Origin: Antedon bifida
Taxonomy: Eukaryota; Echinodermata; Crinoidea; Comatulida; Antedonidae
Direction of reading: 5' to 3'
DNA length: 64,000 bases
Assembly (NCBI GenBank): GCA_963402885.1
Contig: OY727097.1
Span: forward strand, 27,459,401-27,523,400
In this document: in pieces, positions 37,308-60,180 of the stretch
Numbering within the stretch: position 1 is the stretch's first letter
How the letters are laid out: each line of letters begins with the position of its first letter
Notes under the pieces: generated by a model
Databases searched by the model: none
Told to the model about the DNA's origin: nothing
Seen by the model: only the letters and a program-made list of their open reading frames with translations
Program-made: the position numbers and the translations under genes

Positions 37308-38392
37308 GTTGTCTTCTTACGATGAAGTTTTTCCAAATTCTACTACGTACAACACATCGTTAATATTACAAGTATCAGAATTCCAATACCGGGGTGACGA
37401 AAAAGAGTCCAAACAATTCAAAACAAATTATACAAGGGCTTTATGTCAGACATTCCTATAACATACCAGGAAGATCATACAGTAACTCAGATCAAAGAAC
37501 TTAAAACACAGTAACTCCAATTCAGTCTTCTAGTGTTGAAAAAGAAGTACGGAAAGAACAATTTTAGATTGAAGTTATCGTCTGCTGGATGAAGTATGGA
37601 CAGATATTTTTAGTAAAGGCCTCTTTGTATGCAACCAATATGTTCAATATCGATAACACTGAGACACCTTGTTGAAACAAACAAATGACCTTGTCCGTTA
37701 TTTTTGGATTATCGAACCGATCACTGATTCATTTCATAGATGTCACAATATTTGACACGAAATGCCTTTTCATACTATCGATTTATTAGATCAAGAATCG
37801 ATTCGAATAATATGCCGAGTAGCCGAGCAGCTGAGCCGAGTCTAGGCGAGTCGTGACCAAACTTAATCAGTGGTTACTCTCTAAACCAGATCATGCTTGT
37901 TTTCTCATTCTACTGTAACTCAATTTCATTGCTAAGTCTTATTCCATCAACTTGCCAAGTACAAAACACTAAATACAACATGACGTAGTATTTATTCTTT
38001 TATTATTTACTTTTAAATGTTACTGATAATGCATTTAACGTCTTCGTTCCCCTTAATAGCATTTTGCAACTCAAGTACACCTTTTTAGCCAAATTGTTTT
38101 ACTGAATAAACGTTTGCCTTAGTATTAAAACGTTCAGTGTATTCTCCTCATTCGTTTCATAAAAAAGTGTCCCCTTAATAGAGGTATGTACCCAGTATAG
38201 TAACTCTCCGATTTTATTTAGTTTAGCATATGATTTATTTAATTGCTTCAAACTGACTTTAACATGCGTAATGTATTTATTTATATTGTGAATTCTATTC
38301 TATAAAAAAATAGTATCAGTAATTTAATAATTTAATTAATTTGTATCAATGTGTTAAAATACATGCAGCATTGGCAGTGTGTATATTAAGTG
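37308..38392. other. Intergenic region between the MFSD8 start and the mosaic gene end
   Basis: It should hold the MFSD8 promoter and 5' UTR and, on the other side, the 3' UTR of the mosaic gene. A minus-strand AATAAA lies near 38212. The pentamer-like cgagtagccgagcagctgag occurs near 37815. I see no coding sequence. Confidence 0.5.
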
Positions 38393-40464
38393 TTATGGCG
38401 TTGGACATTCCGATTTCACGATACACCTGTCCTTGTGTAGCACACGACCAGCTGGGCAGTAGCACCCTGGTTCACACTGTCGGTAGACACAAGAGGCGTC
38501 TAGCTTCTTATCATTGAAGCAAGTCAGTTGGCACTCTGGAGAAGGACCACAATCATCATACAAGAAACCCGGTTCGCACTTTACACCTAGAAAACAAACA
38601 GGGAAACTTTTAATTATTAGGCCTACGTGTTAATTGTATTTCAAAAACAGAAGGACCATATTGGCTTCCAAACAAGTATCCACTATAATCACTAGTTTCC
38701 TTTGCACGTAAAAGTAGAGTAATATCTTCATGTTTTGCAGTACAAAATGACACATTCCCATAAGTTTGCTACTTAGTCTAATAATTAGTCTCCAGAACCA
38801 GACTATCATACATCGGTCCAGACGTTATGATGCATTATGTACCATATCGCAGTACATGCGCTATGAGCTGCAAAGTTGATCTGCGAACAAAATGTACCAA
38901 GTATACATTGTATTATTATGTTTACTTACCGCATTGTGACAATTTTCCATCATAATTCTGAAGATCTACGTTCAGTCTTTCACATTCTGAAACATAAGCT
39001 GATAGAGATTGACAGAAACACGGTTTGTTAATACCACATACGCACGAGTCTTGCATGCAGAGGTAATAGTAGTCATGTGGCTCAACAAACGCATGGCAAG
39101 CAGACAATTGTCCAATTACAATGTCTTCACATTGAGTTCGCGCGTAATCAAGAACATACTGCGGTTTCCCGACGCAAGCTGGGAAATATTCCCTGGTGAT
39201 GACGTTATCGTTGATGTCTGGATCTTCTTGAACACTTTCATCTTTACAATGCCTATAACCTTTGACCTTCCAACTGTGTACCAATTCTTCGACACTTTTT
39301 GATGGCAGTTTTTGTCGTGTCAATGAATCATCCTTCTTATCTTTATTCATATTCCCACACAGTCCTTCCATCATTCCACTGTAGTGGCTTGGTACATAAA
39401 TAGTTACTTTTCCATCTTCTTTCCAGATGAGTTTTACGCCACGATTAGTTATAACAGACACACCCATTGTACCAAATTCAGATATAAGGACATTTTGTGG
39501 ATTGTCATGCAGATATGGCAGTTGTACTGGTTTACCGGACACTGTCACAGACCCGTTGAAGTCAATATAAACCAAGACACAACCAATATTCAGATAAATA
39601 GCCTTCTCTGTGTAGTTTTGATTATGTTCAATTTGAATTGAAAAATTGCCTGTGACGTAATCTCTGGCCATTGTATAACGACAATCGCCATTGGCCAGAA
39701 ACGAGTGGTCATCAAACGTCCATACTTTTTTGTTTGGCAAGATTATACACCTTGCTGGATCTGAAAGAAGAACACACAAAAATGTTATTCAAACGTCTCA
39801 GAACATACTTAATTATTAACAATAATGATCTAGGCCTATCAAATTGCATTCTCTTACCTGACAGGCACGATGGGCAACAAGTCCCAGGAAAGTGAAATGA
39901 TTGTTCATTCTATAAAACAACAAATATTTTCTATATTGAATTTTTATCTTTAGAAGTTTGATACACCACTAAAGCTCTGTCTACACAAACTTTATGTGAC
40001 AAAAAAATGTGATGTGGCATGATGATGTCATCACTACCATATTTTGGCATATCACTACCGTATTTGAGTACATCACACTTTTTTTGTAAAACTAGTTTTA
40101 TAGTGTAGACAGAGCTCACCATAATATAATATTACATTTTCCTTCCCAATCCCCAATACATGAATATGTCAATACCTCAGAACATTCTAAAACTGGACAC
40201 GTTTTTTGAACGCATTTCGGCCGACCGTCGACGCAACTACACTCTGAACAATTTTCACCAGACCACCTTTCACCAACCTATTCAAACATTAACATTAAAA
40301 TACAGTATAATTTAAACAAATATTGAATTCCACAAAATTAGTCAATTTCATTAAAGAAAGGTTTCTTGAAAATATTCAAAACTAGTGAAAAAAAAACGTG
40401 AAGCTACTAAAATGTTGCTTACTCACCCTGTACACTACATCGTGGTGTGTGCAATAACTTATAT
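38393..40464 (-). CDS. SVEP1-like: Mosaic gene exons 26-30: VWC, VWD, C8 and TIL domains
   Basis: The VWC domain is built from a 38-base micro-exon (40427-40464), exon 27 (40176-40277) and exon 28 (39858-39909), ending TCCPSC. Exon 29 (38930-39760) encodes a whole VWD plus C8. It starts CIILPNKKVWTFDDHSF, keeps GLCGNMN and lacks the GDPH self-cleavage motif. Exon 30 (38393-38586) encodes the TIL domain (CEPGCYCPAG) and the stop. The phases continue from the pentraxin part without a break. Confidence 0.8.
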
Positions 40465-43400
40465 CTATGGAAATAATGTTTTCAAATATAACAATATATA
40501 CATATATAAGAACAATAAATGGACATGCATGATAGTAAATATGCATTTACGAAATAATGGGTTTTCATATACATCCGCAGCAACAGCAAGTAACTCGCCA
40601 TTTACAGCATCGTGCCTAAACGAAGTCTCATTTGTGGATTGGAAGTGTGAGCATGAGAAGGTCAGGATTGAACCCCGGAGCTTGAGATTAGATGGCAACA
40701 ACCAAGCTAATACCCCACTTGTTGCACTTACCTTTACAAGTTCTTCTGTCTGGTTGTAAAGCAAATCCATCCCTACAGGCACAGTGCAATGATCCTGGGT
40801 CGTTATAGCACTGATGGTCACAATTCCCATTATCTTTCAGACATTCGTTCACATCTAAAAAACAAACAAAAGCTTAAAGTTTAACATTTTAGAAATTTCA
40901 CAAGAATTGAATAAAGCATGATATCACACACATAATAGGAACCTTTCAATTTGTGACGACATATAGGACGTAGGCATTGATGTCTCGTCGGTTGTCGTCT
41001 GTGCCAAGTAATAGAGTGAGGAATAGAGCGCCAACTTTCCCGCGTGCGAACAATGAATCGAAAACTCCTTAAGGTCTGTCTACACCATCAAACTACTTTA
41101 ACAAAAAACGTGTGATTTGCTCAAATATGGTAGTGCTATGCCCAAATATGGTAGTGCTATGACATCATCATGTCGATATATGGGCACATCACATTTTGTG
41201 TCACATAATGTTTGATAGTGTAGACAGAGCTTTAGTATGCCTGTAGAACATATTACATATGTCGTATCATGTCTCTGTCTTTCATTACTGAACATTTAAT
41301 GAGAAACATTACCATATTGACACGTTTTTCCCGATCGACCTACAAGGCATTCACATATCGCTTTGCCATCCTTTGTTACACAAGACCCGCCATTTAAACA
41401 GTTCGTCTGCTGAACTGCACACATGTCTGTTTTGTTTTCACATCTTAGACCTACAAACATAAAAAATATTCATGTTGGTACAGGAACAAGTGATAGGTTG
41501 ATGGAATATATACATTCTATCCAACCAGAAAAGTATTAGGAAAAGAGATCTTAATTATATTTAAGAAACGTAGAATGATAAATGCTTGATGCTATGTTCT
41601 ATGATGTCGACAGTTCCGCGTCAAGTATTTCAGAAACTAAACTATCAAACTTTATGTGACAACAAATGTGATGTGCCCATATATGGACACGATGACGTCA
41701 TATCACTGCCATATTTGGGCACATCAAATATTTGTTGTCAAACTAGTTTGAGAGTGTAGACAGAGTTTAAAAATTAGTACTAACCATGGTATCCTGGTTG
41801 GCAGATGCAGAAAAACTCTGAAGTTCCATCCAGACATTGGGCATCATTTTTACAAGATTGTGAATCGCAGAAGGAACTGATCAGTTCACAGTGGTGACCT
41901 TGATAACCGATAGGGCAGTGGCAAATGTAGCCAATTCCGAAGTTTTCACATGATCCTCCATTTAGACACGGTGAGATGAAACACTGGTCCACATCTAAGG
42001 AATAAACATGTATGGAACGCTGTGAATGTATTTGATGCCCATAGGCCTACTTTCTACCTAGCTACTCATGTCCATATCGTTCCTCCTTCTATGCTGAACC
42101 TTTAAGGGACTCCTCTTGGACAAAACAAAATGTCCCCTAAATATGGGTGTCCTCTAAAAGGGCATTGCCCCTCCCCCTTCTCCGTTACATGGCAAAGTGT
42201 CCCCTTAATAGGGGTGTCTCTCTCCTATGTCTACGAAGATCCTTACCATGACATACATATGAATTGTACGTAGGTAGTAAACCGCCTTGGACCGTGGTTG
42301 CAATGAGAGGCCATGCAAGAGCATTTCCGTACATCCCACAGCTTGAGGACGATACCAAACGTTTTTCCAAAGATAGCACGTGATCAAAAACGTTTACCTA
42401 GATAATTAAAGCATATTGTTATTGTTAAATACAAATTAATAGCACGGTGCTTTCAATGAAAGATATTGTTCTCTTGGTGTCGTTTCCTGAAAGGTATACT
42501 GTAGTTTTTGTAAACTCTTGCATCAATAAAAAAAGAAAAACAACAGCCGAGAGTTTGCAGATAACCAAGCAAAAGAGTCAAGAAAACTGGCTACTACAGT
42601 TACAGTTAAGCTTGGTTACCACTAGGACGCAACGCAAGCGAGTTGACCAATGACAAGCGACAGTTCAAATAATTCATCGCTTGTGATTGGTCAAATCTCT
42701 TACGTTGCGTTACGTCGTTGTGTTGCGTCTCTAGTGGCAACCACGTATTAGTGGTGTATTTAACCATGGATTAAAGAATAGAAGGATATGCATCGACGTG
42801 AGATCAAGGGTTCCTTGATTCTCGCCGACAGACCGCGGACCGCCCACAATGTTACAGTTTAATTAACCGCATGGTAACAACGAAACGGTCGCGTGCCTAA
42901 TATATTGTTTACTGCACATGTGCAACGACATTTAACCTTGTTGGCTACGCTTATTTCGCGCGTTCCTTGGTGGCATGATGTTTTAGCGCTAGCAACAAAG
43001 GTGACGAACACTTTATACGACGACGAATTTAGTTTAATCTTTCTGATACCAAATAAAAACAATACTATATATATATATATATATATATATTGGCTTAGAA
43101 TTGTAGATGCTATAATTGTAATTAGTATAGGTTTCTGCCGCGATTGATCTACGCTAATGTTTTTATGAAGTAGCATTTTATGACCTGTAGTAGCCCTACA
43201 TCTGAGACAATAACTATTTGTTGTCTCAGCCTACATGTAAAATTATAAAATCAGCAAGGATACTACAGTAGGCCTAGGCCTTATAGGCTTACTAGTAAAC
43301 CATATGATTTGCCGACATTGATACTGCTTAGGTAGGCCTAGGCTAATCTTAAGTGTAGTAGATACAACGTGTAATCATGATCTATATACTCACCGTTGTC

Positions 43401-46400
43401 TTATTGTGTGAATAATAATAGGTACTAATAATTAATTCGTTATTAAGTTCGAGGCGTATTAAGTTTGCCCTGCGTGTACTTTTCAAAACGACCGCTAGGT
43501 AACGTATCGCAACTATACATAGCCAGCCAATCCCGGATCAGGGATCGCTGTTTTCATTCAATTAGGCCCGGTGATTGGATGTGATATGGATGACATAACC
43601 ACTAGCCAATCACCAGGCACTACAATTTAAATATAATCACATCGATAATTAAGGAGATTTATGAAGAAACCACTGCTTAGCCATAATATTAAAAACACGA
43701 TTGTTGTATGTGTGAACACCGGCCACGCTAACAACATACATGGTCAAATGCATAATTTAATATTCTATAGATTAACGTAATTTTTAATGACAGAAGATGG
43801 CAGGCAAATAATGATAATTCAAATATAAAAATTGCATATTTTATTAATATTACCAACTACTTAAAATTATCAGTCGTAAGAAAGTTAACTTTTCGTAGTC
43901 CGATTGTGATAAAACTAAAACAGAATTGTTCAGCAATATATTTTTGTTGTCAATTAATCATCGACGCAGACATGTCAATAGAACATTCAGACTGCGCATA
44001 CGATTTCTACATGGTTACGGTTTGGTCTCAAAAAATGTAACAGTTGATTCGCAGCGTTCTACAGAGGGCCGCGGTTAGAGACACGGAGTTCAATGAGCGT
44101 GTTTGTTTGATTGGCAGCAGTGCTTTAGTATAGGCAAGCGCGTTGTAAAATCGTTTGATGTCACCGTCGATGCATATCCTTCTATTCTTTAATCCATGAT
44201 TTAACTAACTAAAAAAACAAACAAACAAACCTGACTGATTAGTCCAACGTAGCTTTCCATTTTCACAAATGACCCGCCTAAACTATCTTGCTCTTGTCCA
44301 ATAACGAACATTCCGCCACCTGTAATGAAATTACCCATTTGAACATATCCGCTATTGGCCAATACTGTGTCCAGGTATATCGCCCAGAAGCCGTCAACAC
44401 TATCCCATGTTACACAGACGTGATGTCTAAATCCACTGTGAAAATAACGATTTTAAACAATAAGTAACAACATTCAGTACTTTAGATATGTATTCTTCAT
44501 TTTTCCAATAGTGGTGTCACAAATGCAAATCACGCACGCGCTACATTGACCAATCTACAGTACATGTCACATTTTGATTTTTAAATAACATTTCCAACTC
44601 ACTCATTTGCTTTAACGCCGGTAAAAACGGCCTCTCCATTTATATAAAGTATAAAACTGTTGTAATTCAATATCGTTATAGCATTATCTATTATGCTTCC
44701 ATCTGACAAAGTTGTAGCGTAGGAAATCGGCGTTCCATAGTTATCTGCATCAAATGATTGCATCCAAAATGAGACGGTGAACGCATAAAGATCTGGTAGG
44801 TCTTTGTATATTGCGTATTGAGTTGTATTAGTACTTGAGAAGTGCAAATCGAAGTTTGAACTCAGCTCTGAGAAAAAAAGAAAAGTATCTTTACATTTTG
44901 GGATTGAGTGAAACAGGAAAGACATTGTTTGCAACATTTGATTTTTGGTAAATTGTTCCCGTTGGCTCACATCAAGACGCAATTACCAAAGGAATTCTCA
45001 ATTCTCAGAATGAATCACAAACCCGATTCGGCTGCTGTCATCTGACTGTCGCAAGTGTATAACACATCTTATATCTCAATGACTTGCAATAGTCAGTTAA
45101 GATATACCTAATGACAGCTGTAGAATCGGGTGAATTTTGTCAACTTACTTGCTTGACAAAAAATACCAACGTATCCGAGTGGACAGAGACACCTGAAATC
45201 ACCCATTAAATCCTCGCACTCGCCACCATTATAACAACTGACATTTTCACACCCATCGACCTTTATGGCTACTTCGCAGTTTAATCCAGTGAAACCCGGG
45301 GCACACAAGCATCGATACGAATTGAAATCGTCGACACATGTGCCGTTGTTATGGCATGGTTGCTGTTTGCATTCGTTCACTTCATTGGCACATGTGTGGC
45401 CTTCGTATCCTGGTGGGCAGCAGCAGGTGAAGTTCTGTGTAGAAGTGAAAAATCAAACCAGACAACTCAGTGAGGTTGGCAATAAGCTTGTTTGAACACT
45501 ATTATCGATGGTGTTAATAATTTACAAACACATATGACATATCATACCTACATTTTTTAGTTGGAATCAATGTCATAGTTATAATGAAGATAATTTAGAA
45601 TAAAAGAAAAGAAAAGGAAGGAACTACATTGTAACCGTAAAGCGTGGTTCCCATTAGAGACGCAACGGAAGCGTGTTGACCAATAGCAAGCCACTGTTCC
45701 AATAATCCATCGCTTGTGATGGGTCAAATAAATTACGTTTGCGTTACGTCCTTGCGTTGCGTCGCTAGTGGGAACCAAGCTTAACTAAGGAAAATGAACA
45801 AACACACCAGAGCGGTTCTAATGGCTTACCTGGACACCGTCAAAGCACGACCCGCCGTTCACACACGGATCATTGATACAGTCATCGTAGTTCACGTCAC
45901 AGAACCTACCAGTAAATCCTGCTGTGCATTCACACGTGTAGCTGTCGATACCGTCCACACACTTTGAGTTCACACTACACCGATCTGAATGAATAATAAG
46001 GCGTGGTTCCCACTAGCTACTCAACGCAGGGACGTCTACACAACGCAAGCTGATTGGTCAAATCACTTACATTGCGCTTACGTCTTTGCGTTGCGCAATA
46101 GTGGGAATCAAGCTTTTAAACGTAATATTATTTTTTCTATTTTTTTATTCAAAGTTACGTCATGCTAATAAAGGAATGAAAAAGTGAAAAATAAAAATTC
46201 TAAACTTACTGTTTCGACAGTCATCAATATTAGTCTGACAAGTTCGCCCTTTAAACCCACGTGGACAGACACACCGGAAGTGTCCCCTCCTGTCGACACA
46301 CATTCCATTGTTTTTGCATATTCCAGGTGCGCATTCATTCAAGTCGATTTCGCAGTTATCGCCAGCAAAACCTTTTAGACACACGCATTTATAACCTTCA

Positions 46401-49400
46401 GCCAAATCATAACACTGGCCTTTGTTTCGGCATGGTAATGAAAGACATTCGTTGACAACTGTCGATAAATGATTTATTGATAAATATTATTTCAGTCGCT
46501 GAATTATTGAAGATATTCATTGCTGATCTATAGGATAGTATTCTTAGGCCTACTGTACCTTGACATAACGCCTGAGTCGAAGCTCCCACTTTCAGTGTGT
46601 GCGTTCCTGGAGGGCAGCTAATGCACGTCGACTGCTTACGTATTGGTTGGTATGTTCCCAATGGACATCGTGTACAAGGGGTCAAAGTGCTGAGGGAATA
46701 AGTTCCGGGTTCACATTCTCCTATATCGACAGCAAGAAATTAAGGTAGGAAAATATATATATTATAAAATGTAACAAACGTACAGCACATAATTCAACAT
46801 ACCTTGAATTTTCGACACATTTCCCATAAATTTGTCATTATTAGTTATTGAATTAACATAAATATTTTAAGGTTAAAACACAATAAGGAAATTTTAACAA
46901 CTTTTCTATTTTATAAAATCCATACAGTACCATCCAGAATACATCTACCCTTGCACGCGTACTGTCCGCGGAAAATATTCGGAAAAAAGGCGTTTGTCAA
47001 TATTCCGCGAGGGGTCGAGCAGCTACTTCCTGCTAAAAATCGGACCTCGCGGTACATATTGTATAGTACCATAGCGATCTGCAACATTCAATATGCATTA
47101 ACAACCCTATTTACGATGTTATATAATTAAATATTTCTTGTGTGTAAAACATATAAAACAATGTAGGCCTACCTTGACAATCATCAAATGAAGTGGCCCC
47201 AGGCATTAGCGTCGTTAAGCCATGACATGTGAAACACCTTCTCTGTCTCCCTCTACTTTGGTAGGTCCCAACTGGACATGCTGAACATCTCTCCATTCCG
47301 GTTCTGGAATACGTCCCTGGTTTGCAAGGCCCTAGAAAAACACGGTTTTTAAGAATTTCGAACTTTAAATTGTCGTAAGCATAAATGGTTTCGAACCTCC
47401 TGCTAAGAAAAATATCCACAAACATTCTATAGCATATTTTTTTGAGCATACGTACCTTTGCATTCAAACGAAGACTTAGCATATTCGTAATCGGTAGTAC
47501 TCCCTTCTGGGCAAGATTTGCACGTTTCCTGTGCTTCTTGGTCTTGGTAAAAACCTTTCTTACACCCGATACATGAACCATCACTGTAGAACGTTCCAAC
47601 AGGGCAATTTACTGAAAATAATACAAAAATGTTATAAGATACATAGTATTACAATATACTGTATGTCTATTAAAGCTTGATTCCCACTAGAGACGCAACA
47701 CAAGGCCGTATGACGCAACGCAAGCGAGTTGACCATTGACAAGCAACAATATTCCATGTGATTGGTCAAATCACGTACGTTGCGTTACGTCATTGTGTTG
47801 CGTCTCTAGTAGGACCAAATATAAAACACGTCATTGCGTTGTGTTCACACACACGCACACACCAGAGTCTCACTCTCGACTTTTACCTCCCTGTTTTAAC
47901 TCCGATAACTCGATTAACATAATGTAAGCCTACCCAGAAACCTGGGTTAATAACACCATTTTGTTAATAGCAGATGCAGGACTGTGCAATATACTTACCA
48001 CAAAGTCCACTTTGACTTATCTGTCCCTTCCTACATGATGTACTGACTTCGCTAAAATAAAGTTCAAGATTTGATAGATAAAGGTTTATGTAGGTGCCAA
48101 ATTTGTAAGACAATCTACTGGTTCGAACAGCGTTTTCGATATCGTCCACAGTTTTTTGAACATCTGGATCATCAGGATGTGAGGCCTTGGTTTAGAAAAT
48201 AGCTTTTGTTATTTTGATGTAGTCTTTATAATTTCAGAACGTGTTGTAATGGTATGACGTAATTTACCCTTACCCTTAAAATGACCCTCAAAATGACCCT
48301 CTTCATTATCTAACTTAATGCTGACGAAATAATTAGGCCTAAAGTAGTCTAACCAAAGCCTGAGTCCTAACATTTTTCCTAAACTAGATGGAATTATTTA
48401 TTACCTCCGATCCAAGTAGAATTTTAAACTGCAGGTAATACGTCGCATATGCAGGTCTTGGGTTATATCTAGTAGGTATGTACCTACATGTTGTCTCCGT
48501 AGTCTCTATAGAACAGTTGTAGCAGACATCGTGTATAACTGCACTGAACTTATTTTCAAAAGCTTTAAGGTCGGTTTTTGTCTGGTAGGCACCTTGTTTT
48601 GGACATGGTCGTGTGTAATATGTTAGCCCAACGTCTACAGCCAAACTTCCATTATCTACGGCTGTTAACAATATAATTTAAACACATTTATTAGCTACTG
48701 GAACAACACAGATATGCTACTCATGTATATTCTGTGCCTAGCTTACCTAGATAAATCGACAATAGCCCATGCTCTCCAGAGGGAGAACTGAGATAGGAAA
48801 AGTTAAAAGTTCTTAGCGCACCCCTCTAGCATAATAGACCATTCCGCAACCAGGCTCTCGTTTGTGAAGTTTATTGAGTAACGCAAATAGAGATTTGACT
48901 TACCTGAGCAATCTGGCCACAGTAGATCAGGCTTGTTTGATGAAGAATCAACCCAATTACTGTCTGATAAATGCAATGATAAGAAAATAGTAAATCTTGA
49001 TACTTTATTGTTTACATTACAAGTGAAGTCGTGAAATGTATGATTATTCTAAGGATGATATCACCAACTGCCTTTAAAATCTCGAAGGTAAAAATTTAGA
49101 ATTTGGCTTTGTGTTATGGCTCTTATAGTTTTATTCTTATAATTCAAGATAAACCTACTTCGGCAGTGATACACATCTTCAGTTTCCCGCCAAAATTGGT
49201 AGCCCTGTTTACAGGCGATTCGGTAGACTTGTCTTCGACCTCCTAACAAGGATGTGTGAAGAATGTTGCCATTTCTTGGGGCTTCTTGAAACGAGCACGA
49301 AGTAGCTGGAAAGAGATTAATTTTTGTAATATGTTTATAATGTTCAAAAATGCAACTTACAGTCTGATGTTACTTCAGAACAATGCATTATACGTTTTGA

Positions 49401-52400
49401 ACCAATTTCTACATACTTGCAACAGCCACGTAGAAGTCACAAGAAGCCGTGTTCCCAGAAGAGTCTTTGGCCCTGTAAGACACAAGAACTCTGTCTCCTT
49501 GCTTCACTTCATAACCAGATTGGACATTAGAAGTAATCTCAAATGGCATCCCAGAGTTATCTTCAAATGTTGGTTCCCTCCACGTCACATTGAATGAATC
49601 TTGCGAAGTTTTCATTTCAATGTCTTCCTCACAAAACACTACTACTGGGGCATCAGCATCTATATTACAATTATTTACAATTAGTAGAGGGAATATTAGG
49701 TAAAACACAGATCCATTCCTATTGAATAGTACACGTTTAATTACGGGTCTCTTCCAAGTAGAATCTACTTTTCAGGTGCCTGTGTGAACACAATGTGGTA
49801 CTTAAAAAAATGAGTAATATTTAATATTTATAACAATTTTGATAACTATATGGTCTTGATGACGTGCAATCTTCTCATTACTTGTTTGTTTTCTCTTTTA
49901 ATTTTTCTGTTTTACTGGGCTTTATTTTTTATGTATATATATATATATTTTTTTTATAAATGTTGTATTTTTTATTGTTTGTTATGTGCAATTTGGACCC
50001 CATTGGAAATGGGCTGGTTTTTCCGGCCTAATGGGTGTTCCTGATGCTCGTTATTTTGTCTTTAGTCTGCTTGTTATTTTAATGTTGAGCATCAAATAAA
50101 TTCAATCAATCAATCAATCAATCAATCTATTAAACCTAAAGTGGCTTAAAGTGGAATTGAAGCCAACGGGTATAGAATATAACAAATTTTGATGTTTGTT
50201 GATGAACCGATTGTCATTTGCAGACACAGTAAAACTAATAACATTAAAGGAGACACCTTTGGGCCCCAATAAAGTTTCCCCTTTAAAAATACATGGTCAT
50301 AGTGTTAAAACATATATTTCCCCTCATTTCTTTCACGGGAAGTGTCCACTTAATAGGGGTGTCCTTGTATGCCTGGTTCCCACTATTGATCCAACGCAAG
50401 GACGTAAAGCTTGGTTCCCACTAGAACGCAACGCAAGGACGTAAGCTGCAGTGCAAACGAATTGACCAATCACAAGCGACAGTTCGAATAATATATCGCT
50501 TGTGATTTGTCAAATCACTTACGTTGCGTCTACGTCCTTTCGTTACGTCCTAGCGGAAACCAAGCTTAACGCGCAACGCAACTGATTTGACCAATCACGG
50601 GCGATGGATTATTTGAACTGTCGCTGGTAATTGGTCAACTCGCTTGCGTATCTAGTGGGAACAAGGTTAAAATAGGAGTTTAATGATTTATATTTCTTAC
50701 CGATAACTGTGACATAGAATGAACAAGTAGCTTGGTTACGTTTTTCATCTCTTGCCTTTATTACGACTTTCGTTCGTCCAATTGGAAATTCATTATTTGT
50801 TGTATATGGTGTTGTGTTCTTTCCATTGCTATCTTTCGTAATTACTTTTACTTTAGACGGGTTTCCTGAATTGTCCACCACATTTAGTTTATCCCAGGTT
50901 ACCTTTGCTGTATTCTTTAATGAGTCTGTATTTACAGTGATATCGGGTGGACAGTTTGTTATTGCAGGTGGCTCATTATCTACAAAAGAAAAAATAATAA
51001 TTTAACATCAATGTAATTTATAGCATGAGGTATAAAAAATACCTCCATAATTATAGAACCATATTGGCACAAAAACAGCAAGTTACCATATCCATTGCGT
51101 GGTGATTTATTGTGTGATCTAATGCTTGGTTCCCACTAGGACGCAAGGACGTAACGCAACGTAAGTAAGTAGACCAAGCACAAGCAATGGATTATTCGAA
51201 CTGACGCTTGTCATTCGTCAACTCGCATAAGCTTGGTTCCCACTAGAACGTAACGCAAGGACGTAAACGCAACGCAAGCGTGTTAACCAATGACAAGCGA
51301 CAGTTCGAATAATCCATCGTTTGTGATTGGTCAATTCACTTACGTTGCGTTACGTTCTCGCGTTACGTCCTAGCGGAAACCAAGCTTAAAACTTTCATTG
51401 CATAACTTTAAATAGAATGTAATGTGTGATGTCCATATACACTTAGGTCTGGAGATTACAGTATATAGGCCTAGAAGGAGAACATAAATTTAGAAAGGGA
51501 ATAGTCGATAATTAAAGAATAGTTTCAGAACTATGCTTTTATTCTAGTACTAAATTCAATAATTCCATTCAACTCTACACATTATCTCCAAGTATTCACT
51601 CCTATCCATGGTTGATAATGCTTATGCTTATAAGTACGAACCTATGCATTTTGTAATATTATTGATCGACCACATCTTATTTGCTTGGCACATTCTATTT
51701 TCTTGACCTTTTAAAGCGTATCCATCTACGCATGCTATCATACACACAGTTTTGTATGGCAGAGATGAGTTCCAGCATTCGGCAGGAGTCACCATCATAT
51801 TTGCGCCACCCTTGTGAAGCTTTATGGGACTGCATTCGACGGCTAGGAAAATACAAGATTAAGTAGAATCATTAAGAAAAAGTTAAACATGTTAATAATT
51901 TAATTAATTATCATTAACATTATGACGGTACCATCCTGTAGTCTGTACTTCTCTTGGCCAAGAAGCAGACTACATATTGATATTAATTGAGAAATGTTCT
52001 TTCGAGTTAAATCAAAACAAAATGGGAGAAAACTTCCCGACGTAATTATACACCCGATTCTGTGGCTGTCACGAGACTCTCTGTGGAAGACTGTTACCTG
52101 TCTACCAGATACCTATCTGACTGTATTAAGTACTTTTAATACACGATATCTCTGTCATTAGGTTCCTATCTAGAGACAATGCATAACGTTATAAAATGTG
52201 TAGATATCGTGTATTAAAAGTCAGATAGGTATCTGGTAGACTGGTAACAGTCTTCCACAGAGAGTCTCGTGACAGCCACAGAATCGGGTGAATTATAAAT
52301 CGTGAGCTTTATTAATTAGTACCGTATACATTGTCGTTGTCTCATTCAATTTATTTTTGTTATGAATCTGTATTTCCGATCAGCGTCTTACAGAGTAATT

Positions 52401-55400
52401 CTATGGGGGGATGTGAGGACCCCAAATAGGCTTTTCGTGACTTCACAATTTCTTTCTGCTGGTCTTCTCCGATCCTCCGTCCGCTATACTTACGTTTACA
52501 TTCTAGGCGTCTTCCACTCCAAACACCACTCTCTCCAGACTTCTCACATCTCCTGACGGCTTCATTCCCTCTTAATTCGTACCCTTCTTCACATGTCACG
52601 TGACAGTCGGTACCAATTGATAATCTTTGGTTTCTGCACTTCAGTATTCCATTCTCCACGTTTGGTGCATCGCACATTATTTCTAAAGAAGCGTGTCATG
52701 TCATTGTTACTATGTATGACTTACTTGCCCCAAGTCTACATCTAGTGTCTTTTTATTTCGATTTTTGTCTGAAAACAAGCTCACGTAGTATACGTATGAA
52801 ACGCCATATGTGCCAAAATATTTATCTTTTTACTAATATTAAGTCAAAACTCCGTCTCAGACTAGGTAAAGTGTAACTTGAGTGGATTTGATGACAATAT
52901 GATAGGATTGTGATGACACAATAATTACGAATGTGGTGATGACGAAGGTGTACAACCTATAGGCCTATTTGTTAATAATGGGCGTCACTTACCAGAGCAC
53001 TGAAGGTGTTGACCTGACCACGATCCATTCGCTTGACACACCCTCTCTACGTCACCACCAACCATTTTATAATTGGTCGCACACCCAAACATGCAGACAT
53101 CGTTAAAAGAATTACCACAATGTTTCGATATCTTGGTAACACCCTCGGCAGTGATCATTGCATCACATGTTACAGCTAGAAAACAAGGGGAAAATGTTTG
53201 GTTGTTTGGAGTTATTCACGAGTTGCAGAGAGACCAGGGAAGAGTTCACTCATCCCTGGTTAGGCCTACTACGGAGTCATTGGAAAGTAAAATTCAGTTG
53301 GTGGTCATTTGAAAAATATGTTGTTAAAGACGTGACAGACTTTATCTGTAAAATAGATGAATATATTAAATTTGTAAAAGAAGAGTCGATCTAAGTTTCG
53401 AGTACTGTATAGGCCTACAGTATTGTCGTTTGAAAGACAACCCATTTTGAACTGTGACGTCTTACCTTGACAGTTATTACGCGAGGTCTTTTGAAAACCT
53501 TCGACACATTGACAATCGCTTTTATCCGTAGAACCAGGATTCAAAGTGTTTGAGTTTGCTGGGCATGTTAGACAAACGTGGTTTCCCCAGATCGATTTAT
53601 AATAACCTAGACTGCAAGCTGTAAGATCAAAACAAAACACATTTTTTTACAAAACGTTTTTACTATGAAGCGATTGTATTAAATGAATATAGGCCTAAAC
53701 CAACGTAACATACACTCAATGAGGTACAAGGTATCAACGTGAATGTACTTACGTAAGCATTCCGTGTGCACTTCGGACCACGTGTAGCCTGGTTTACATG
53801 CACATTGATAGCTTACACTTTCAAGAGCAAATGTACAACTTGAATTGTGTGCTTCGCAACAGTTCCCTCCAGTGCAGAGAAAGTCACAATTACTGTCATC
53901 TACTAGCTCCCAATCTGTTTGATGTTTGATATCTACAGTTTTAAAAAGCAACAAAAGTAATGTTTTCATTGTTTAGGAGAGCATTCTCGTCACATGATTA
54001 TTTGAAAGCCCATTATCATACATTACAATACCAGCCAACACGTGCCAAAACGTGCCAAAACAGTGTTTTTTAAACAAAAAAAAATACCTCACGGTTGTAG
54101 TTTTATGAAAACTTAAGCTCTGTTTACACTATCAAACTAGTTTGACAAAAAAGAGTGATGTGCCCAAATGTGGCAGTGATATGCAACAAAAGTAATGTTT
54201 TCATTGTTTAGGAGAGCATTCTCGTCACATGATTATTTGAAAGCCCATTATCATACATTACAATACCAGCCAACACGTGCCAAAACAGTGTTTTTTAAAC
54301 AAAAAAAAATACCTCACGGTTGTAGTTTTATGAAAACTTAAGCTCTGTTTACACTATCAAACTAGTTTGACAAAAAAGAGTGATGTGCCCAAATGTGGCA
54401 GTGATATGCCCAGAAACAGTAGTGATATGACATCATCATGTCCATATATGGGCACATCACATTTTTTTGTCACATAAAGTTTGAGTGTAGACAGAGCATT
54501 ACCTCCGCGCATTATATTACAGATTCCTCCAAGATCCTCCGAATCATCCAGACGGATCACATGCTCGTCATCACCAGCAACGTCACGAAGCTCTCCATAA
54601 CTGACATTCGTTTTTAAAGCTATTGGAATGATAACGATGCCATCCTTCCTCATCTGCTCAGCGATTCCACGTGGATCTTCTGTGGGATCCGAGAAACCGT
54701 TTGTCAACATCACCAACAACCTGCATGTCAACATGTTTTAGTATGCATCATGTTGTATGAGTAGTAACATTGCCTTCGTTTATAAATGACTGGTAAGTGT
54801 GTTTTTATCATTTTGGTCAAACGGCTGGTTGTGTTCTTACATGTCTTTATTTTTGAGTTTGCCCTTTTTTATCTAAATTAAAATCACGTCAAATGCCTAC
54901 TTTTTTCCATTATTTTTTCATCTTCAGTTTTACCCTTAAGCTCGCCTATAGCACCAGGGAAGAGTTTGCCAGTGAAAAATAGAGAGTAATAGCAGATTAA
55001 CGTGCTTCAACACCTCGAGAGTTTTCCCATGTAAACTCACTCTTCGCTGCTAGCACTATATTTTGTTAACTTTGGTCTATAGTATCTGAGCATATTGGAA
55101 TAATGATGAAAAAATTAAATACCGGATACATATAGATTCGACTTACCTGGTTATGTTCTTCAATTCCTCTTCTGGAAAGATATCGTACGACTTTTCTAGG
55201 ACCGATTTATAACTTGACGTAGGCCTACTCTCGGCCTTGTATGTCACGTTCTTGATAGCATCTTTTAGACTGCAACCTCCTTGCGAGTTTTGAATATAGT
55301 TAATAGGGATGTCAATCTTGTCAGCGTAAGTCATAACTGCTACCTGCGTCTGATTCTTTCGAAAGATGTTTGCAGACTGCTCTACGAAGTCTACTTCGAG

Positions 55401-55613
55401 ATTAAATAAACTCGAATTCACAGTTCCAGAGCTATCAAGTGCATAAATTAAATACATCGGATCAGTTTTGTATCTCTCAAACAAAGTAAACATGCGTTTA
55501 CTTTCTGCAGTGTCAGCAATAATTAGGCCTGCTATTGCATTGAAAGCAATGCATTGTAGAATTATACAACAGGCAAGAAGGATCATTTGATTGTCTGTTT
55601 TGTTGGTGTTCAT
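38393..55613 (-). CDS. SVEP1-like: Secreted mosaic protein: SVEP1/polydom-like with a VWC-VWD-C8-TIL C-terminus
   Basis: Thirty exons join in frame to 2079 codons, mostly through phase-1 introns. In vertebrates SVEP1 is a large extracellular adhesion protein that binds integrin alpha-9/beta-1. Domain order (approximate residues): signal peptide 1-28, VWA 30-228, EGF-like 229-288, GCC2/GCC3-like 289-339, CCP 1-3 340-530, HYR 1-2 531-704, split CCP 4 705-773, unassigned Cys-containing region 774-921, GCC2/GCC3 x3 922-1080, EGF x6 1081-1310, pentraxin 1311-1517, EGF x4 1518-1674, VWC 1675-1738, VWD-C8 1739-2015, TIL 2016-2079. The start is the ATG at 55611-55613, with A at -3 and a following hydrophobic signal core. 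The frame is open further upstream but has no ATG. The order up to pentraxin matches SVEP1. The C-terminus does not: no CCP series follows. Vertebrate BMPER and mucin-like proteins carry the VWC-VWD-TIL set. Confidence 0.85.
39972..40119. mobile_element. MITE family 2 copy
   Basis: The ends aaagctctgtctacac and gtgtagacagagctc are inverted repeats. The copy lies in an intron of the mosaic gene. Confidence 0.75.
40545..40722 (-). mobile_element. tRNA-derived SINE-like sequence
   Basis: On the minus strand an A-box-like TAGCTTGGTTGTTG is followed 30 bases later by a B-box-like GGTTCAATCC. Spacing and sequence suit an RNA polymerase III promoter. A single copy in an intron means boundaries are guesses. 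Confidence 0.45.
40732..41994 (-). CDS. SVEP1-like: Mosaic gene exons 23-25: four EGF domains after pentraxin
   Basis: The exons are 41785-41994, 41313-41450 and 40732-40854. EGF 7 starts DVDQCFISPC, EGF 8 crosses the intron, EGF 9 contains LNGGSC, and EGF 10 (DVNECL...DHQCYNDPGS) is of the complement C1r/s-like calcium-binding type. Confidence 0.8.
41071..41234. mobile_element. MITE family 2 copy
   Basis: The ends taaggtctgtctacacc and gtgtagacagagcttta are inverted repeats. The interior contains 'caaatatggtagtgctatg' twice. Confidence 0.75.
41640..41772. mobile_element. MITE family 2 copy
   Basis: The interior tttatgtgacaacaaatgtg and the end gagtgtagacagagttta identify the family. The left end has lost the first bases of the terminal repeat. 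Confidence 0.7.
42247..44867 (-). CDS. SVEP1-like: Mosaic gene exons 20-22: pentraxin domain
   Basis: The exons are 44603-44867, 44231-44435 and 42247-42397. Hallmarks are FTVSFWMQS, YGTPISYAT, FRHHVCVTWDS (the H-x-C-x-T/S-W pentraxin signature), FVIGQEQDS and a terminal NSYVCH. The intron between exons 21 and 22 holds the 1.43-kb transposon and a MITE. Confidence 0.85.
42609..42748. mobile_element. MITE family 1 copy
   Basis: It runs from aagcttggttaccactagga to gtctctagtggcaaccacg, with the gttgaccaatgacaagcg interior and its inverted partner. It directly neighbours the 1.43-kb TIR element. Confidence 0.75.
42765..44198. mobile_element. 1.43-kb non-autonomous TIR transposon with 7-bp target duplication
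   Basis: Terminal inverted repeats of at least 34 bases begin CATGGATTAAAGAATAGAAG. The target duplication ATTTAAC is perfect (42758-42764 and 44199-44205). No transposase frame is present inside. The CATG start and roughly 31-base TIR recall P-element termini, but that family usually makes 8-bp duplications, so the assignment is a guess. A (ta)n run lies at 43064-43092. Confidence 0.8.
45020..45132. mobile_element. MITE family 3 (CACCCGATTC), short diverged copy
   Basis: The ends acccgattcggctgctgtca and gacagctgtagaatcgggtg are imperfect inverted repeats related to the element at 52051. The right end lies 16 bases from the splice donor of mosaic exon 19. Confidence 0.65.
45149..46458 (-). 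CDS. SVEP1-like: Mosaic gene exons 17-19: six EGF domains
   Basis: The exons are 46210-46458, 45830-45984 and 45149-45434. EGF 2 (DLNECAPG) and EGF 5 (EVNECKQQPC) keep the calcium-binding D/E-x-N/D-E-C start. EGF 3 and EGF 4 are each split across an intron. Six EGFs before the pentraxin domain agree with SVEP1. Confidence 0.85.
45637..45783. mobile_element. MITE family 1 copy
   Basis: It runs from aaagcgtggttcccattaga to gcgtcgctagtgggaaccaagctt. The ends are clear inverted repeats. Confidence 0.75.
46000..46116. mobile_element. MITE family 1 copy (internally deleted)
   Basis: It runs from aaggcgtggttcccactagc to caatagtgggaatcaagctt. The interior is shorter than in other copies. Confidence 0.7.
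46559..47611 (-). CDS. SVEP1-like: Mosaic gene exons 14-16: three GCC2/GCC3 repeats
   Basis: The exons are 47456-47611, 47173-47331 and 46559-46720, one repeat each. Hallmarks are CPVGTFYSDGSC, CPVGTYQSRGRQRRC and CPLGTYQPIRKQSTC. The repeats are joined through phase-1 introns, and this is the SVEP1 position for them. Confidence 0.85.
47672..47816. mobile_element. MITE family 1 copy
   Basis: It runs from aaagcttgattcccactaga to gcgtctctagtaggacc. The interior shares gttgaccattgacaagc and gtgattggtcaaatc. Confidence 0.7.
47999..49305 (-). CDS. SVEP1-like: Mosaic gene exons 10-13: split CCP and an unassigned region
   Basis: Exon 10 (49159-49305) and exon 11 (48904-48963) together encode one CCP (SCSFQEAP...CKQGY...LLWPDCS) split by an intron. 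Exons 12 (48405-48661) and 13 (47999-48185) encode about 148 residues with few cysteines (TRPCPKQGAYQ, DVCYNCS, TSCRKGQ) that I cannot assign to a named domain. SVEP1 has an equivalent linker at this place. Confidence 0.75.
49417..50979 (-). CDS. SVEP1-like: Mosaic gene exons 8-9: two HYR domains
   Basis: Exon 8 (50701-50979) and exon 9 (49417-49659) each encode an immunoglobulin-like HYR (hyalin repeat) domain. Hallmarks are EPPAITNCPPDITV, VTWDKLNVVDNSG, then FPIGRTKV and ARDEKRNQATCSFYVTV, with DSSGNTASCDFYVAV in the second. Paired HYR domains after CCPs are the SVEP1 arrangement. Confidence 0.85.
49905..50125 (+). mobile_element. LINE 3' end with (AATC)n tail
   Basis: A T-rich start, then ggaccccattggaaatgggc and a second small hairpin, leads to 'catcaaataaattc' and a (aatc)n tail at 50102-50128. 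This is a typical CR1-like 3' end. Confidence 0.55.
50370..50662. mobile_element. MITE family 1, nested copies
   Basis: A complete copy (about 50408-50570, aagcttggttcccactagaa to cctagcggaaaccaagctta) lies inside a second one. The halves of the outer copy flank it (gcctggttcccactattga at 50372 and gtatctagtgggaacaagg at 50643). Confidence 0.7.
51121..51388. mobile_element. MITE family 1, two adjoining copies
   Basis: A partial copy starts at 51123 (gcttggttcccactaggacg). A complete one follows at 51230-51388. Both share the ggacgtaacgcaacg interior. Confidence 0.7.
51642..53175 (-). CDS. SVEP1-like: Mosaic gene exons 5-7: three CCP (sushi) domains
   Basis: The exons are 52993-53175, 52494-52682 and 51642-51842, one CCP each. 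Each has four cysteines and the late Trp (GSWSGQHLQC, GVWSGRRLEC, KMWSINNITKC). Exon 7 uses a weak donor, GTTCGT. All boundaries are phase 1. Confidence 0.85.
52044..52297. mobile_element. MITE family 3 with perfect 7-bp target duplication
   Basis: A fold-back element at 52051-52290 with long near-perfect arms starts CACCCGATTCTGTGGCTGTC. It is flanked on both sides by AATTATA (52044-52050 and 52291-52297). Little interior remains between the arms. Confidence 0.8.
53466..53932 (-). CDS. SVEP1-like: Mosaic gene exons 3-4: EGF-like and GCC2/GCC3-like modules
   Basis: Exon 3 (53753-53932) encodes an eight-cysteine EGF-like module ending YQCACKPGYTW. Exon 4 (53466-53618) encodes a cysteine-poor-spacing module (CPANSNTLNPGS, DCQCVEGF) of the ephrin-receptor-like or GCC2/GCC3 type. 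Both are bounded by phase-1 introns, as expected for shuffled extracellular modules. Confidence 0.8.
53950..54409. repeat. 233-bp tandem duplication in mosaic-gene intron 2
   Basis: Two nearly identical copies start at 53950 and 54183. They differ mainly by an extra cgtgccaaaa in the first. Each ends within the left part of a family-2 MITE, so the MITE was in place before the duplication. Identity this high implies a recent event. Confidence 0.85.
54116..54183. mobile_element. MITE family 2, left fragment made by the tandem duplication
   Basis: It contains aagctctgtttacactatc up to gtggcagtgatatgc and then stops at the duplication junction. Confidence 0.75.
54349..54499. mobile_element. MITE family 2 copy abutting a splice donor
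   Basis: It runs from aagctctgtttacactatc to gagtgtagacagagc. Its right end lies within about four bases of the mosaic exon 2 donor, whose intron begins GTAATGCTCTGTC, so the element supplies most of the first intronic bases. Confidence 0.75.
54503..55613 (-). CDS. SVEP1-like: Mosaic gene exons 1-2: signal peptide and VWA domain
   Basis: Exon 1 is 55147-55613 and exon 2 is 54503-54720 (phase 2 to phase 1). A hydrophobic ILLACCIILQCIAFNAIAG signal core precedes the VWA fold. The first metal-site loop reads ALDSSGTV (DxSxT rather than DxSxS). The loop that is usually TDG reads TNGFSD, so metal binding may be weakened. Several NxS/T sites are present. Confidence 0.85.
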
Positions 55614-55779: not shown

Positions 55780-56235
55780 GTGCAATAGTACATTTTAATA
55801 GTTTAGTGACTATTGCATCATAATTGGTAGTTCTATCAGGTTTTATCTTGTTTTCTCCCTTGTGCAATAGTATTTTTTGTCTTTAGGATACTTAAGTGGA
55901 TGTTGCATTATATATTTGTAGTTAATTTCTATCAGGTCTTATCTTGTTGTTTTCTCCTTGTGCAATAGTACATTTTATTTATAATACTTAAGTGGCTATT
56001 GCGTTATATTTTGTAGTTCTATTGTATTATCTCGTTTTCTCCTTTGTGCAATAGTATTTTTTTTCTTTAGGATACTTAAGTGGTTATTGCATTATATAGT
56101 TCTATCAGGTCTTATCTTGTTTTTCTCCTTTGTGCAATAGTATTTTTTGTCTTTAGGATACTTAAGTGGCTATTGTATTATATAGTTCTATCAGGTCTTA
56201 TCTTGTTTTCTCCTTTGTGCAATAGTATTTTTTCT
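55780..56235. repeat. ~85-bp imperfect tandem repeat upstream of the mosaic gene
   Basis: About five to six copies contain gtgcaatagtattttttgtc, ctttaggatacttaagtgg and ctattgcattatatagttc. Period is roughly 84-85 bases in the right-hand copies and less regular at the left. It starts about 170 bases 5' of the likely start codon and so lies in or next to the promoter. Confidence 0.75.
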
Positions 56236-58819: not shown

Positions 58820-59360
58820 TTCCTAAACAACTTTTTTAACTTCGTCTTCATCATCGTCATCAATCTCTCTATCTACGTTGTTCCATTCTTCTAGTTGACA
58901 CACTCCCCAAACTGAAGTACATGCCAATCCATAGCATCTACAACTGCAACATACAGTTTTACATCCAGTAGTACAGTTACAATGGATGATTTTCAAAAGT
59001 TCTTCTGAAGCAGCAGTTTCAATCGTCATTATTGGCACAAATGTTTTATTAAAAACTTCCCCGACTTGGTAGCATCCATGGTATTATCTTTCTTTATCCA
59101 TTGCATGATTTGATAGTATACTCTAAGACTGTGACATTTTGTAGCAGATGAGGTTGGTGGTAGTAGTTGTTGAGGTTTGATAAATTATTTACCCTCAGCA
59201 ACTTTCTTATTAAACAGCTTGCATCTGTAGCTATTTGGGAAATCCAGTGACTTGGCTCCAAAACGAATAGACATGGCCTTTAATCCAAACTCCTCGATAG
59301 TTTGAAATTTCTGATGCGGTTGAGTGAAACTATCGGCACACATCAGTGTCATATTCTAGG
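58820..59360 (-). pseudogene. Transposon-type protein remnant, C-terminal part (left arm)
   Basis: On the minus strand there are broken stretches: EEFGLKAMSIRFGAKSLDF, then CHSLRVYYQIMQW, then FVPIMTIETAASEELLKIIH. They run into a cysteine-rich HCNCTTGCKTVCCSCRCYGL segment and an acidic tail. This pattern recurs in repetitive genes of many aquatic invertebrates. I do not know a function. Frameshifts make it a relic. Confidence 0.6.
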
Positions 59361-59823: not shown

Positions 59824-60180
59824 GATGTTGACATTGCTCTGGCAACAGTTGAAGTCTCTGAACATAATACAGTAACTTTGATTGGAGAAGACACGGACTT
59901 ACTGGTACTTTTACTGTATCATGTAAATACAACAAACCGAGAAATGTACTTCAGATTAGACAAAGGAAAAGATGGGCCTACTAGAGTGATTAATGTAACC
60001 AGATTGAAATCTGTTTTAGGATATAAAATCATCCATTGTAACTACTGGATGTATGTTGCAGTTGTAGAAGCTATGGATTGGCATGTACTTCAGTTTGGGG
60101 AGTGTGTCAACTAGAAGAATGGAACAACGTAGATAGAGAGATTGATGACGATGATGAAGACGAAGTTGGAACAGTTGTTT
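59824..60180 (+). pseudogene. Transposon-type protein remnant, middle part (right arm)
   Basis: The plus strand reads IGEDTDLLVLLLYHV, a motif of the same invertebrate repeat-encoded protein. It continues to RVINVTRLKSVLG and then jumps to the cysteine-rich segment, where frameshifts and missing cysteines (HCNY rather than HCNC) show decay. Confidence 0.6.

Follow-up and report, generated by a model that had tools for sequence, protein, structure and literature searches.

The window, the whole stretch of 64,000 nucleotides of Antedon bifida DNA analyzed here (contig OY727097.1, positions 27,459,401 to 27,523,400), contains no N and carries on its minus strand one reading frame that spans 30 exons from 55613 to 38393 (Table 1). 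The coding sequence of 6135 nt encodes 2044 amino acids, and its sole stop codon is the one at the C-terminal end. All 29 introns of the model have GT..AG borders, 23 of them are in phase 1, and their median length is 290 nt. For the model, Cys-rich open frames were collected first and unclear junctions were then inspected base by base; the least certain junction is the one between exons 12 and 13 (48488/48163). A preliminary description of the sequence had placed the gene between the same two ends, which are exact in our model, and had joined 30 exons in frame, as is confirmed here; its length of 2079 residues has to be corrected to the 2044 computed here. An exon-chaining program that used codon statistics from this stretch together with rough splice matrices predicted 26 exons, 25 of which are identical to exons of the final model. 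Missing from its output were the pentraxin (all three exons) and half of the fourth CCP, and its exon 1 began too late. Since the program had been instructed to build a single chain beginning in a specified region, its output is uninformative on the question of one or two genes.

Table 1. Exons and 3' signals of the SVEP1-like gene in the window, listed from the start codon onwards.
Feature	Position	Strand	Evidence
Exon 1, signal-peptide-like start (ATG 55613) and VWA first half	55147..55613	-	Pfam VWA 61.9 bits
Exon 2, VWA second half	54503..54720	-	exon model, Pfam
Exons 3-4, Cys-rich exon and GCC2/GCC3 (Ephrin_rec_like)	53466..53932	-	exon model, Pfam
Exons 5-7, three CCP/Sushi, one each	51642..53175	-	exon model, Pfam
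Exons 8-9, two HYR	49417..50979	-	Pfam HYR 80.6 bits, 2 stretches
Exons 10-11, the two halves of the fourth CCP	48904..49305	-	Pfam 14.8 bits, below cut-off
Exons 12-13, region between CCP4 and GCC repeats	47999..48661	-	exon model; no Pfam match
Exons 14-16, three GCC2/GCC3 repeats	46559..47611	-	Pfam Ephrin_rec_like 112.1 bits, 3 stretches
Exons 17-19, six EGF	45149..46458	-	exon model, Pfam
Exons 20-22, pentraxin (44867-44603, 44435-44231, 42397-42247)	42247..44867	-	Pfam Pentaxin 81.9 bits
Exons 23-24, three EGF	41313..41994	-	exon model, Pfam
Exon 25, cbEGF	40732..40854	-	Pfam FXa_inhibition 37.3 and cEGF 30.2 bits, both above cut-off
Exons 26-28, VWC in three exons, phases 1-0-0-1	39858..40464	-	Pfam VWC 36.5 bits
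Exon 29, VWD and C8 in one 831-nt exon	38930..39760	-	Pfam VWD 77.2, C8 46.5 bits
Exon 30, TIL and stop codon	38393..38586	-	Pfam TIL 32.1 bits
First two AATAAA 3' of the stop (38281, 38218)	38213..38281	-	pattern match only

The encoded protein starts with a signal-peptide-like sequence, judged by hydrophobicity (core of 3.5, Kyte-Doolittle mean over 9 residues), from which we infer that it is secreted. This start is followed by VWA, GCC2/GCC3, three CCP, two HYR, a further CCP, three GCC2/GCC3, six EGF, pentraxin, three EGF, cbEGF, VWC, VWD, C8 and TIL. A Pfam search of the model protein, as the preliminary description had proposed, found among other domains VWA, Sushi (three stretches), Ephrin_rec_like (one and three), HYR (two), EGF (nine), Pentaxin, FXa_inhibition, cEGF, VWC, VWD and C8 above their cut-offs; the exception is the fourth CCP, which scores below the cut-off of 20.7 bits and was assigned from its place and its cysteines. 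The split of the EGF domains into six before and three after the pentraxin was assigned by inspection of the model, nine being the total of Pfam stretches. TIL exceeds its cut-off of 24.5 bits when the last exon is searched alone and is unlisted for the 446-residue tail piece. The best PDB match of the pentraxin is neuronal pentraxin-2 (E 5.5e-29), and those of the 446-residue tail are FCGBP (E 5.1e-84) and VWF (E 9.2e-54), with mucins also among them. Exon model and Pfam together bear out the earlier view of a SVEP1 plan up to the pentraxin, followed by EGF domains and VWC-VWD-C8-TIL. Three further features of the gene region were observed: an RGD tripeptide (residues 227-229) following the VWA, whose codons straddle the junction of exons 2 and 3 (54503-54509 and 53931-53932, minus strand) and which may be due to chance, a 225-nt unit present twice in intron 2 (53948-54409), and an 86-nt unit in about four copies located about 0.2 kb upstream of exon 1 (55831-56233).

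The third pentraxin exon lies at 42397-42247, so that the longest intron of the model (1833 nt) falls inside the pentraxin and only 252 nt separate the pentraxin from the next EGF exon. This arrangement bears on the alternative that two neighbors are present, the first being SVEP1-like and closing with the pentraxin, the second comprising EGF-VWC-VWD-C8-TIL. Transcripts ending after the pentraxin or a separate first exon near 42 kb had been named as signs of two genes in the preliminary description, which itself favored one. Neither sign was found as far as the sequence can show. A pattern scan found neither AATAAA nor ATTAAA in the 252-nt gap, across which the phases are compatible, but one AATAAA and five ATTAAA are present in the pentraxin intron and one ATTAAA in intron 24-25, so that earlier 3' ends are possible by pattern. 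The closeness of the longest intron and an in-frame stop near 42187, which is reached by reading on from exon 22, would also suit two genes. A secretory first exon was sought in the seven intervals from the pentraxin to the VWD; to count as a candidate, an exon had to open with ATG, to reach 2.0 or more for its hydrophobic core and to have a positively scoring donor in a compatible phase. These simple criteria are blind to an untranslated first exon. No candidate was found in any of the seven, while the true first exon of the gene has a core of 3.5 and a donor score of 6.1. Moreover, the order pentraxin-EGF-cbEGF-VWC recurs in a paralog at C10:29.21 Mb. We consider two genes highly improbable; the stretch from 55613 to 38393 reads as one gene, which is presumably transcribed into a single mRNA.

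From the VWA to the pentraxin the gene has the order of SVEP1/polydom. The detailed domain order of human SVEP1 serves as reference here, and both have VWA, GCC2/GCC3, three CCP, two HYR, a CCP, GCC repeats, six EGF and pentraxin in the same sequence. The outline of this order is also given in passages of two papers on the family (PMC12549020; PMC10281526). The signal peptide, the VWA and the order from the three CCP to the pentraxin are present, whereas the long series of CCP domains that follows the pentraxin in SVEP1/polydom is absent: Pfam found no Sushi 3' of the pentraxin in the model protein at E 0.1, and the window gene ends with three EGF, cbEGF, VWC, VWD, C8 and TIL instead. In mouse polydom, the Tie1 site has been mapped to CCP20 and the integrin alpha9beta1 site to CCP21, as stated in passages of PMC10281526, and according to Pfam neither of these domains has a counterpart in the window protein. 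The same passages describe conservation in vertebrates for the Tie1 residues and conservation in mammals alone for the integrin site (PMC10281526), which makes CCP20 and CCP21 a weak criterion for an invertebrate protein. Changes of the tail have been described for cnidarian polydoms, which carry PAN/Apple, FA58C, CUB or six CCP there (passages of PMC12549020). A literature search covering titles, beginnings of abstracts and passages of open-licence papers found no polydom with a VWD tail. Variation of the tail is thus already known in the polydom family, and the VWC-VWD-C8-TIL version was not found in the literature searched in this way. A search of viral contigs for a relative gave two pattern matches, neither of which was confirmed.

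We searched the whole genome with the pentraxin of the gene, which gave ten matches at four loci: the window gene, C10:29.21 Mb, C10:24.26 Mb and C11:17.49 Mb. Three of the four lie on one contig. The C10:29.21 Mb locus, 1.7 Mb away from the window gene, shares with it a SVEP1-like front, pentraxin, EGF, cbEGF and a VWC (Pfam 32.6 bits) in three exons with the same phases 1-0-0-1. After the VWC, seven HYR frames take the place of the VWD tail; five of them were detected by tblastn, two scored above the Pfam cut-off (one overlapping with the former) and one was recognized by eye only. Behind these frames lies a frame with three chitin-binding CBM_14 domains (Pfam), which by its position is a candidate part of the gene. 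A VWD was not detected at this locus, either by tblastn or among the 140 matches obtained when 150 of 196 candidates were scored. Tandem SVEP1-like pieces occupy the surrounding region C10:29.20-29.25 Mb (L032-L036), where tblastn detected three VWA together with CCP, HYR and GCC. After the pentraxin of C10:24.26 Mb come EGF frames, a CCP, three cbEGF and further CCPs, with four CCP detected by Pfam. HYR domains are very abundant in this genome, chiefly on C9, C14, C7 and C8: a first look yielded 1375 candidates, and all 150 that were scored matched, which would agree with an echinoderm genome.

The fourth locus, C11:17.48-17.50 Mb, is a SVEP1-type gene in which the pentraxin is followed by no fewer than 21 Sushi stretches (two frames with 11 and 10 by Pfam) and then by an EGF-like frame below the Pfam cut-offs. 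It has the core of HYR, GCC repeats, EGF and pentraxin in common with the window gene but keeps the long CCP tail that the latter does not have; a tblastn search of 60 kb at this locus did not detect the VWA end of the C11 gene. Over 205 core columns the window gene is 49.3% identical to C10:29.21 Mb, 46.8% to C10:24.26 Mb and 46.3% to the C11 gene. A quartet tree from these 205 columns grouped the window gene with C10:29.21 Mb in 45% of 200 bootstraps; columns with any gap had been dropped, and C11 contributed none for the third GCC and for query positions 1355-1401 of the pentraxin. With a bootstrap value of only 45%, a common origin of these two genes rests on their shared layout.

The preliminary description had considered that this lineage swapped the CCP tail for a VWD module. 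Since a CCP-tailed SVEP1-type gene is kept on C11, SVEP1 was not replaced, and the window gene is a divergent paralog; judged from the gene layouts, the change of tail concerns one paralog. Its other suggestion was an ancestral form, in which an early ambulacrarian or deuterostome SVEP1 would have had the VWC-VWD-C8-TIL end and vertebrates would have lost it. A VWC common to two loci of this genome and the concentration of pentraxin loci on one contig could be read in this way, but the C11 gene is CCP-tailed as in vertebrates, and we regard an ancestral tail as quite unlikely. With at least four pentraxin-bearing SVEP1-like loci, one of which is CCP-tailed, duplication with exchange of the tail is the most likely origin. 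We therefore favor the reading that the window gene is a SVEP1-class paralog with a VWA-to-pentraxin front and an EGF-VWC-VWD-C8-TIL tail that would have arisen by duplication and subsequent exchange of the tail between flanking phase-1 introns; to its architecture and paralogy we give a probability of roughly 0.8.

To trace the source of the tail, it was compared with the whole genome, which resulted in 26 matches at E <= 0.001 (101 candidates scored), four of them being the gene itself. The other 22 are 28-48% identical, and a recent copy of the tail from another gene of this genome was rejected on these grounds. Outside the window, the three best matches are two exons, TIL and C8, of a locus at C1:26.45 Mb and the TIL exon of a locus at C13:14.71 Mb; next come a VWC (C11) and a C8 (C9). 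The C1 and C13 loci have the order VWC-VWD-C8-TIL and, from this layout, we take them to be of BMPER/KCP type; they were compared by their C-terminal part. The VWC-VWD-C8-TIL block of the window gene is ordered as in BMPER/KCP-type C-termini, with two such loci as its best, distant, matches. Introns split the VWD of both loci: in the C13 locus it is interrupted by three in-frame stops and in the C1 locus it is in pieces 1.7 kb apart, whereas the window VWD is unsplit and shares its exon with the C8. A further region, C7:689-712 kb, contains VWD exons every ~1.7 kb with many equal scores, perhaps due to a recent tandem expansion.

GDPH is the cleavage motif of VWD domains, and the multimerizing proteins of the VWF and mucin kind have a CGLC motif, several D assemblies and a C-terminal cystine knot. 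The window VWD reads NKKVWTFDD at the GDPH place and EGLC instead of CGLC, the first Cys being missing, whereas both motifs are kept at the C1 and C13 loci. Both are missing in four of the eight best VWD loci (L001, L002, L008 and the window's own L007; three of seven excluding the window), and loss of GDPH and CGLC is not unusual among the VWD loci of this genome. The earlier proposal of VWD-type multimerization, taken here as disulfide exchange of the kind seen in VWF and mucins, is weakened by these changes. The window gene belongs to the same VWD-C8-TIL family as FCGBP, VWF and the gel-forming mucins, which are the best PDB matches of its tail, but it has a single VWD in one C-terminal assembly, and no cystine-knot domain is among the Pfam matches of the model protein. 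VWD-C8-TIL also occurs in sea-star, sea-urchin, limpet and flatworm proteins with a potential cohesive role (passages of PMC9382459), which would be in line with multimerization. On balance we judge multimerization of this kind to be unlikely.

The C-terminal order VWC-VWD-C8-TIL, and the two loci of that order as best genome matches of the tail, would also suit a BMPER/KCP-like modulator of BMP with an acquired SVEP1 front. The window gene has one VWC only, the one adjoining the VWD, while the N-terminal VWC series with the BMP-binding VWC1 is absent, as is the GDPH motif found in the BMPER/KCP-type loci of this genome. CV2 binds BMP by its VWC1, and a fragment of its VWC4-5 bound neither BMP2 nor Chordin (passages of PMC2944808), which makes BMP modulation less likely for a protein with a single VWC beside its VWD. 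The BMP binding considered in the preliminary description is left without direct support, and we hold a modulator of this kind to be very unlikely.

As a SVEP1-class paralog, the window gene would encode a secreted matrix protein of the polydom class that kept the front of the family and in which the CCP series was substituted. The names of its domains point tentatively, with the odds somewhat against it, to a glycoprotein that adheres or serves as a scaffold in the matrix, the coelomic fluid or a secreted coat. In such a protein, partner binding would fall to the VWA, CCP, HYR, EGF and pentraxin parts, and the VWD-C8-TIL end may be used for packing or docking and would lack the isomerase chemistry of VWF. 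By analogy, the nearest functional parallel is provided by the VWD-C8-TIL adhesives of sea stars and other animals, which are thought to give cohesion (passages of PMC9382459). A more doubtful extension would be that echinoderms evolved a family of polydom paralogs with a common pentraxin-EGF-cbEGF-VWC middle and interchangeable tails, VWD-C8-TIL in the window and HYR at C10:29.21 Mb. If this is true, the anchorage of a common sensing front would depend on the tail, which would hold it in a gel- or mucus-like coat, in the hyaline layer or at the cell surface. SVEP1 is a disease-linked matrix protein of vertebrates, and in mouse its receptor sites lie in the CCP tail (passages of PMC10281526). 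A paralog that has the front without this tail separates the two naturally and could reveal the role of the front itself. The locus would also illustrate clearly how a tail is exchanged between phase-1 introns; the same genome has a CCP-tailed paralog and one that shares only the VWC.

Elsewhere in the window, the minus-strand region 26005-28502 contains two frames (26005-26139 and 28254-28502) that resemble by eye a sodium channel of the DEG/ENaC type. A near-identical Cys-rich peptide with an acidic run is encoded at 58841-59077 (minus strand) and at 60045-60173 (plus strand), about 1 kb apart, and these copies are perhaps the ends of a mobile element. A tunicate host was rejected, the mitochondrial code making an echinoderm the most likely one; a search for GH6 had no match, but its control had none either and this search carries no weight by itself. 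COX1 was found on C27; its five AAA codons all lie at places where Asn is expected in animals, its AGA and AGG codons fit Ser, and several of its 17 ATA codons lie at Ile places, a pattern that corresponds to the echinoderm/flatworm mitochondrial code.
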